Assembly: GCF_020342435.1 (NCBI RefSeq)
Contig: NZ_CP080504.1
Location: 149,698-213,697 of the forward strand
DNA: 64,000 nucleotides
Direction of reading: 5' to 3'
DNA from: Candidatus Vallotiella sp. (ex Adelges kitamiensis)
Lineage (GTDB): Bacteria > Pseudomonadota > Gammaproteobacteria > Burkholderiales > Burkholderiaceae
Position 1 is the first letter of the stretch. The number at the start of each line of letters is the position of its first letter. This document shows positions 26,489-28,692 of the stretch, one piece after another. A program made the position numbers and the translations under genes. The notes beneath the pieces were generated by a model, which saw only the letters and a list, made by a program, of their open reading frames with translations, was not told the DNA's origin and made no database searches.

Positions 26489-27619
26489 CTATTCAACGCC
26501 ACGTGCACGGTCAGCGTGGAAATGCGTTACAAATGCATCGAATGTTCCCGATTCGATGGAATCTCGGATTTTCTGCATTAGGTTGAGATAGTAATATAGA
26601 TTATGGATCGTATTTAGCTGCGCACCTAGGATTTCACCAACACGATGTAGGTGGTGTAAGTACGCACGCGAAAAGTGGCGACACGTATAGCAGGCACAGC
26701 TTTCGTCTAGAGGACGCGTGTCTTTCCGGTGTATCGCATTTCGGATTTTCAAGTCGCCAAACCGTGTGAAAAGCCAGCCATTACGCGCGTTGCGTGTTGG
26801 CATAACACAGTCAAACATATCAACGCCGGCGGCAACGCCGGCTACCAAGTCTTCCGGCTTGCCGACCCCCATTAAGTAGTGAGGCTTATCGATTGGAAGC
26901 CGGAAACTAATATGATGCAGTACGCGTAACATATCCTCCTTAGATTCACCCACTGATAATCCGCCAATTGCATAGCCATCAAAACCGATGTCTAACAGTC
27001 CATCTAATGATTCTTCACGTAGCGCTTCGTACATGCCACCCTGTACGATACCGAATAGCGCGTTTAGGTTAGCAAGACGCCTGAATTCATTAAGAGAGCG
27101 CTTAGCCCATCTCAATGACATCTGCATCGAACATGCCGTAGTATCATACGATATAGGCATGCCATCAATCATGTATGGGGTACATTCGTCAAATTGCATC
27201 GCGATGTTGGAGTTCAATGCCGTTTGCACCTGCATTGATACCTCCGGTGATAGAAATAGTCGGTCGCCGTTGATTGGTGAGGTGAACGTCACACCATCCT
27301 CGGTAATTTTGCGCAGTTCGGCGAGCGAGAATACTTGAAAACCACCAGAATCGGTTAGGATCGGTCGTTCCCAGCCCATAAACCGGTGCAGACCACCATG
27401 TTCAGTAATTGTGTCTAGTCCAGGGTATATCCAGAGATAAAATGTATTGCTCAAGATAATTTGGGCTTGAACGTCTTCAAGCACGCGAGGCGTCATGGCC
27501 TTAACGGTGCCATATGTGCCGACTGGCATGAAAATTGGCGTGTCGACCGTTCCGTTATGCAGAGTCAGTCGACCTCGTCGTGCAAGACCGTCGGTGAATA
27601 GGACGCTAAATTTTATCAT
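26489..27619 (-). CDS. tgt: Queuine/preQ1 tRNA-ribosyltransferase
   Basis: Bacterial TGT (376 aa) exchanges guanine-34 for preQ1 in GUN anticodons. The catalytic Asp region is [11 protein letters not shown], the second Asp is in [12 protein letters not shown], and the zinc site [17 protein letters not shown] is complete. The ATG overlaps the stop of queA by four bases (ATGA), so the two are translationally coupled. The third pathway enzyme, QueG, seems dead at 58.5 kb. Normally yajC-secDF follow tgt directly; here they do not. Confidence 0.97.
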
Positions 27620-28692
27620 GATAATAAATCAGGTCGGGGCTTGTGCGCAGCAAGAGAGGCAGCCCGAGTAAGTAACATCGCGTCGCCATAGCTAAAAAAA
27701 CGGTAGCGTTGTGAGATCGCGTGGCGGTAGGCGCGGCGGATTGGTTCGACACCTGAAAATGCAGACACTAACATCAGAAGTGTTGATTTCGGCAAATGAA
27801 AGTTTGTCAAAAGCCGGTCAATGACACGGAATCGGTAGCCAGGTGTAATAAAGATATCCGTTTCCGCACAAACCGCACGTAGTTCATGGCCACAGCGCTC
27901 AGCATCACGGGCTGCCGCTTCTAGTGCCCGCATTGATGTTGTACCAACTGCGATCACCGAACGTCCCGCAGCCCGCGTAGCTTGGATTTCTTCAACTAGA
28001 GCTGGAGGGATGTGATACCACTCGCTATGCATTTTATGCTGCCCAATATCGTTAGTGCGTACGGGCTGGAACGTGCCAGAACCCACGTGCAGCGTTAACG
28101 TAGCACAGCGGACACCTCGCATTTTTAATGCAATAAGTGTTGGCACATCAAAGTGCAGACCAGCAGTGGGCGCCGCAATGGCGCCAGGCGTCATCGAAAA
28201 CACGGTTTGATACCGTATCTCATCGTAGCTATCGGGGCTATGCTTAATATAGGGTGGCAAAGGAAACCGCCCATACCAATTAATTAATTCAATACAATTG
28301 TGTGGGAAATGCAGTGTATGAAATGGGTTTGCGGGCTCTCCAATTCTTACCTCAAATGCGTCTGAAAGTCGGATTATTGAACCAAGTTTTGGACGCTTGC
28401 TTGCTCGGATTTGTGCGAGTGCGGTACGCGGACCAGTTACGCGCTCAATGAGAACCTCAACGCCTCCGCCACTCGCTTTTACCCCATTGAAGCGAGCTTT
28501 TATTACTTTTGTATCGTTAAAAACTAGCAGATCGTTAGGCTCAACGCAAGTCAGAAGTTCAGAAAAACAATGGTCCAGAAGAGTACCGTCTGGCGTGACT
28601 TCGAGTAAGCGGCTCGCACTACGTGCGGGCAAAGCATATTGCGCAATTAACTCTGAGGGGAGATTAAAATCAAAATCTGGCAGTGTGTACAT
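27616..28692 (-). CDS. queA: tRNA ribosyltransferase-isomerase QueA
   Basis: QueA (358 aa) moves the ribosyl of S-adenosylmethionine onto preQ1-tRNA to form epoxyqueuosine. The start [18 protein letters not shown] is the family N-terminus; an in-frame upstream ATG at 28734 is less likely. Conserved blocks are [32 protein letters not shown] and [13 protein letters not shown] near the end. Operon with tgt; promoter region shared with divergent recG. Confidence 0.96.

Follow-up and report, generated by a model that had tools for sequence, protein, structure and literature searches.

A probable salvage-only, two-enzyme remnant of the queuosine pathway, predicted to end at epoxyqueuosine, in a reduced genome of the Vallotia/Mycetohabitans group

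The window, a 64,000-nucleotide stretch of the genome G000 (1,172,651 bases in two contigs, completeness 99.95%), carries two queuosine genes, tgt and queA, on the minus strand, and about 30 kb further on the place where a third, queG, would be expected. The features of the window that enter the analysis are the following.

24930-26072, plus strand: mnmA, matching NF001138 with 453 bits, the next gene downstream of tgt and on the strand opposite to it
26489-27619, minus strand: tgt, tRNA-guanine(34) transglycosylase, 376 aa, intact, matching TIGR00430 with 518 bits
27616-28692, minus strand: queA, whose product makes epoxyqueuosine-tRNA from preQ1-tRNA, 358 aa, matching TIGR00113 with 390 bits
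28950-31058, plus strand: recG, divergent from and upstream of queA, matching NF008166 with 1105 bits against a cut-off of 864
57986-58510, minus strand: tsaE, left flank of the queG slot, matching TIGR00150 with 116 bits against a cut-off of 60
58511-59373, no strand: vacated queG slot, in which the best QueG match scores 18.5 bits and is equalled in 27 of 300 shuffles
59374-60300, plus strand: xerD, intact in the window and flanking the queG slot on its right, matching TIGR02225 with 351 bits

As originally predicted, tgt and queA are intact and coupled: both proteins match their families at full length and above the curated cut-offs (306.75 bits for TIGR00430 and 267.45 bits for TIGR00113), and the two genes overlap by 4 bp. 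Tgt also matched PF01702 with 522 bits and QueA matched NF001140 with 448 bits. No tRNA gene was found by ARAGORN in the whole 64 kb window (1-64000). Since mnmA lies on the opposite strand, no gene of the same operon follows tgt directly, and secD and secF are located further from tgt. Hitch-hiking of tgt ahead of secDF was considered as a cause of its retention and was rejected in the six of eight genomes inspected (G000, G002, G003, G004, G005, and G007), where secDF are either convergent with tgt or separated from it by opposite-strand genes; because secDF do not directly follow tgt on the same strand in these six, a downstream gene does not explain why tgt is kept. The order queA-tgt-secD-secF was found in three Paraburkholderia/Caballeronia loci (L034, L036, and L038). 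Within the genus this order is broken, also in the large genomes G003 and G007 (L186 and L187), in which secF lies ~6-7 kb from tgt and is convergent with it. On the other side of queA, the window recG is a full 702-aa frame, whereas the best recG pieces next to queA in G002, G004, and G005 cover part of the gene (57% over 279, 71% over 65, and 36% over 168 residues, respectively; L179, L180, and L181); judging from these frames, the window genome seems to keep a repair gene that the other reduced genomes have lost.

The genus group, probably Ca. Vallotia together with Mycetohabitans, comprised eight genomes, four of them reduced (G000, G002, G004, and G005) and four large (3.3-3.8 Mb; G001, G003, G006, and G007). 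The Genome Taxonomy Database places Vallotia under Mycetohabitans and a published genome tree shows it as a separate clade (both PMC12696581); Ca. Vallotia tarda is an adelgid symbiont (PMC8692619). In a tree built from Tgt and QueA, G000, G002, and G004 formed a clade with an ultrafast bootstrap of 100, and all four reduced genomes grouped together with a value of 88. A queA gene is present in all eight genomes, and so is an open tgt frame; in the four reduced genomes the frame of neither gene is interrupted.

The last step of the pathway could not be found in the reduced genomes. QueG (TIGR00276, a model that was positive in 9 of 14 control genomes) gave no match in G000; it was detected in none of the four reduced and in all four large genomes. 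Likewise, QueH gave no match in G000 and was found in none of the reduced genomes and in one of the large ones. The original prediction had reserved the case that an intact queG or queH lies elsewhere; the search extended to the complete genome and neither was found there. The large genome G001 (L003 and L010) carries both QueH (222 bits) and QueG (455 bits) as a redundant pair.

The four large relatives all carry queG with tsaE on one side and xerD on the other, and the same two flanks border the slot in the window, so that the position originally proposed for queG proved right. In the window the flank matches are ~0.93 kb apart, compared with ~1.83 kb in the large relative L009, that is, ~0.9 kb closer together. 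The fragments of queG said to occupy 58530-58850 were not confirmed, given the 27 of 300 shuffles that equalled the best match. A fragment at 58447-58623, which no shuffle in 300 had equalled at first, was also rejected, as it rested on a stretch antisense to tsaE; in the retest, QueG was trimmed to its Met and the slot was taken as 58511-59373. With the trimmed protein, the corresponding slots of the other reduced genomes gave a clear relic in G005 (0 of 300 shuffles), a marginal one in G004 (8 of 300), and none in G002 (141 of 300). At the right flank, xerD is broken in G002 and G004 and was not found in G005 (L119, L120, L126, and L127). XerC-like matches of 34-37% identity were found in the window genome and the four large genomes and not in the other three reduced genomes.

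With neither queG nor queH found, epoxyqueuosine is the simplest prediction for the end point of the pathway. Completion to queuosine by a third, B12-independent epoxyqueuosine reductase of a kind that escapes recognition would have a precedent in QueH, whose discovery was reportedly prompted by genomes with tgt and queA but without queG. QueH is a cobalamin-independent reductase unrelated to QueG (PMC5615194). However, the large relatives have QueG, and a shrinking genome of ~1.1-1.2 Mb would thus have had to acquire or co-opt the substitute. We regard a hidden reductase as rather unlikely.

The genome search called for in the original prediction also covered the first steps, and showed that the pathway is cut at its start as well. 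QueC (over the cut-off), QueD, QueE, and QueF, with QueE searched by its own protein, were absent in G000, G002, and G004; each was found in one of the four reduced genomes, always G005, and in all four large ones. A weak match to the QueC model in G000 (21 bits against a cut-off of 150) covers positions 1-85 in a 568-aa frame. In G005, QueC, QueE, QueF, Tgt, and QueA match their families, each above at least one curated cut-off, and QueD, with 87.8 bits, stays just below its cut-off of 89.25. PF04055 was tried as a marker of QueE or of a queuine lyase and was discarded, because its four places in G005 miss the intact QueE of that genome. It marks four proteins in each reduced genome, which in G000 are LipA, HemW, BioB, and RlmN (L142, L150, L158, and L189). 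MiaB is not among these four, and a second step of anticodon-loop modification may, on this domain count, also be missing in G000.

In G005 and G003, queD-queE-queC adjoin rodA. The counterpart in G000 is the spacer from rodA to tRNA-Phe, where matches to queC, queE, and queD appear in the expected order and none was equalled in 300 shuffles, with both strands searched; their scores lie 4.3, 0.7, and 0.8 bits, respectively, above that of the best shuffle, and the queE match is 11 residues long. In the corresponding spacers, queC, queE, and queD were equalled in 240, 0, and 21 of 300 shuffles in G002, where queE alone passes, and in 22, 4, and 49 of 300 in G004, so that the relic argument is one about G000 and the queE of G002. 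A collinear-chain statistic on the three relics, computed for these spacers, fell short of significance in every genome (17 of 200 shuffles in G000, 123 of 200 in G002, and 157 of 200 in G004). We read the queC, queE, and queD relics of G000 as apparently real but weak and faint. These slots also bear on the possibility that queG or the precursor genes exist and have merely escaped assembly. Although the genome is in two contigs, its completeness is 99.95%, three other reduced genomes agree on the absence of queG and two on that of queDECF, and the syntenic slots are present and either empty or occupied by relics only; an assembly gap is thus scarcely credible.

Since the start is cut too, tgt and queA would depend on imported preQ1. 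The substrate of QueA is preQ1-tRNA, and as queF is absent, preQ0 would be unsuitable and preQ1 itself would have to enter. The Tgt motifs [14 protein letters not shown] and CxCxxC...H, the latter being the zinc motif, are all present in the four reduced genomes. Aligned to PDB chain 6ygl, presumably the Z. mobilis Tgt whose numbering is used here, the pocket of the window Tgt reads FDEC and GGLSVGE, with the equivalents of Cys158 and Val233 kept. The roles of these two residues in the pocket have been described (PMC3660597), and queuine-using Tgt enzymes typically carry GG[LS][AS]G (PMC10723273). By its residues, the window pocket is therefore of the preQ1 type. A Ser beside Val233 cuts kcat ~100-fold in the Z. 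mobilis Tgt (PMC3660597); a Ser stands beside the Val233 equivalent in the window Tgt, and also in the two large relatives, out of four, whose motif was displayed.

How preQ1 might enter was approached through the QPTR/YhhQ transporter (PF02592), which was found in none of the eight genomes with a model positive in 9 of 14 controls. The carrier search covered this family, as distinct from UPS, HlyIII, MFS, and QueT, members of the MFS being too general to assign. Experiments have established preQ1 transport by members of three further families, and for many salvagers no carrier is recognised (PMC11130926). PreQ1 was not found in mammalian cells (PMC10723273).

To quantify constraint, dN/dS was estimated on the branches to the three genomes that retain tgt and queA without the rest of the pathway. 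The values were 0.043 (G000), 0.065 (G002), and 0.156 (G004) for tgt and 0.073, 0.111, and 0.155, respectively, for queA, with bootstrap upper limits of at most 0.40 in the widest interval and synonymous branch lengths of 0.35-0.77. Pairwise values among the three genomes were 0.05-0.11 for tgt and 0.09-0.13 for queA. All these dN/dS values are rough, because the synonymous divergence between the three is high (0.76-1.25). Among the 25 genes common to G002 and G004, both of these included, tgt ranked 9th and queA 20th from the most constrained; for this ranking queA was taken with an upstream open frame (0.150, with one stop in the G002 alignment), and its coding part alone gave 0.131 and no stop. 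The six genes are free of in-frame stops throughout their aligned coding parts, whereas neutral simulations starting from the window genes (500 runs per case) accumulated on average 8.8-14.4 stops and never zero. By these estimates, tgt and queA are under purifying selection in all three genomes. In a further comparison, tgt was found in 73 and queA in 88 of the 88 loci supplied, and near-invariant columns (at least 97% uniform) numbered 129 for Tgt and 98 for QueA, from 65 and 80 other loci, respectively. The reduced proteins deviate at 2-5 of these columns and the large ones at 0-1, which shows some slight loosening of the reduced Tgt proteins with their motifs kept.

These results bear on two other readings. 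In one, the pathway is in its last stage of decay, and tgt and queA are functionless and not yet broken; the loss of all other pathway parts sought, the absence of the QPTR importer family, and the 2-5 deviations of the reduced Tgt proteins would fit such a state. But both frames are open in all four reduced genomes, the branch ratios (0.04-0.16) were reached over the synonymous lengths given above, no simulated gene stayed free of stops, and decay did overtake xerD in G002 and G004 and made queG unrecognisable in G000 and G002. We consider this reading unlikely. In the other, Tgt would salvage queuine directly from the host, which may contain it, and queA would persist because it is coupled to tgt, or on some other ground. 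Queuine salvage has been published for Chlamydia and proposed for tgt-only Rickettsiales (PMC5615194 and PMC10723273). Against it, the pocket reads GGLSVG and not GG[LS][AS]G, the Cys158 equivalent is kept, and selection acts on the QueA protein itself, beyond its reading frame, which makes direct use of queuine very unlikely here.

The loss of queG coincides with that of a B12-binding domain. QueG requires cobalamin (PMC4646009), and the B12-binding domain PF02310 had no match in the four reduced genomes and was over the cut-off in all four large ones, in a frame of ~960 aa. In Rickettsia, and likewise in 61 genomes that share its hole, the absence of QueG has been tied to that of B12 (PMC5615194); by the same argument, loss of B12 use would supply a cause for the loss of queG. 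The joint loss of queG and PF02310 fits this published rule, and within one clade it may represent a single event. Because G000 shows relics of queC, queE, and queD but none of queG, and because G005 has lost queG and keeps queDECF, queG probably went first, together with B12 use. The simplest history is that the B12 enzymes and queG were lost in the ancestor of the four reduced genomes and queDECF in the ancestor of three, parsimony placing the latter loss before the split of G000, G002, and G004. From its gene content, G005 would be the middle state, in which de novo synthesis is predicted to reach epoxyqueuosine and to stop short of queuosine. A recent loss of queG, which the original prediction had offered as one explanation, is not supported by these observations, since all four reduced genomes are without the gene and in G000 the queC, queE, and queD relics are still detectable, with thin margins, while queG is not (27 of 300 shuffles).

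Several parts of this picture have counterparts in other bacteria. Rickettsia is likewise without QueG, which has been explained by lack of B12, and an epoxyqueuosine end point was named there as one possibility (PMC5615194). The 61 genomes with the QueG hole, none of them reported as a cobalamin producer, include the insect symbiont Ca. Pantoea carbekii (PMC5615194). In contrast to the reduced genomes studied here, which are also without QueH and three of which have lost the upstream genes, Rickettsia has upstream genes and QueH, and 45 of the 61 hole genomes have QueH (PMC5615194). Salvagers of preQ1 or preQ0 resemble the window genome in that they have Tgt and QueA but no QueDECF, and a recognised transporter is often missing (PMC11130926), but predicted preQ1 salvagers have QueA plus QueG or QueH (PMC10723273), and no reductase was found here. 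Bartonella henselae is intracellular, has a preQ1-type Tgt, and leaves the modification unfinished (PMC10723273); it has lost queA and kept QPTR, whereas here queA is kept and QPTR absent, so that the predicted end product lies one step later. The genome papers on Vallotia and Mycetohabitans (PMC8692619, PMC8857208, and PMC12696581) deal with the same group as the window genome, and the queuosine terms looked for are absent from the main text of each; a literature search for Vallotia and queuosine found no description of such a pathway state in Vallotia. Other bacteria thus already provide examples of a missing QueG, of its connection with B12, and of salvage in which no carrier is recognised; new here is that these features occur together, and that selection was measured along a graded series within a single genus.

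Taken together, these results suggest that G000 takes up a precursor and leaves its tRNA modification incomplete, yet useful. We assign a probability of about 0.58 to the reading, drawn from gene content and sequence conservation, that tgt and queA form a two-enzyme remnant of the queuosine pathway, fed by salvage alone and ending at epoxyqueuosine. Tgt would replace G34 with imported preQ1 in tRNAs with GUN anticodons, QueA would add the ribose part of S-adenosylmethionine to give epoxyqueuosine, and the latter would not be reduced further. The end point originally proposed hence stands as the simplest prediction, and a useful product is supported by the selection that acts on the two enzymes; the proposal has to be amended in that the start of the pathway is cut as well and imported preQ1 would be needed. 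In evolutionary terms, an insect-symbiont ancestor may have given up its B12-dependent enzymes, QueG included, its descendants would first have made epoxyqueuosine de novo, as G005 still could, and the lineage of G000, G002, and G004 would then have lost queDECF and become dependent on preQ1 from outside, with a companion symbiont as its most plausible source and a putative importer as its route. In its widest form, the proposal that epoxyqueuosine is the selected wobble end product across the insect-symbiont clade, made de novo at first and later from co-symbiont preQ1 taken up by such an importer, is put forward tentatively and with some doubt.

If true, this would mean that co-symbionts exchange a tRNA base in the manner of a vitamin. 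The genus offers a graded series, from the complete pathway in the four large genomes, through de novo epoxyqueuosine predicted for G005, to the two middle enzymes only in three genomes. As tgt and queA are kept throughout, the series is a natural test of what epoxyqueuosine is worth, and since the last step to queuosine costs B12 when done by QueG, it also bears on what that step adds. Within this small and well-described insect system, the reading further predicts a donor of preQ1 and a new importer for it.
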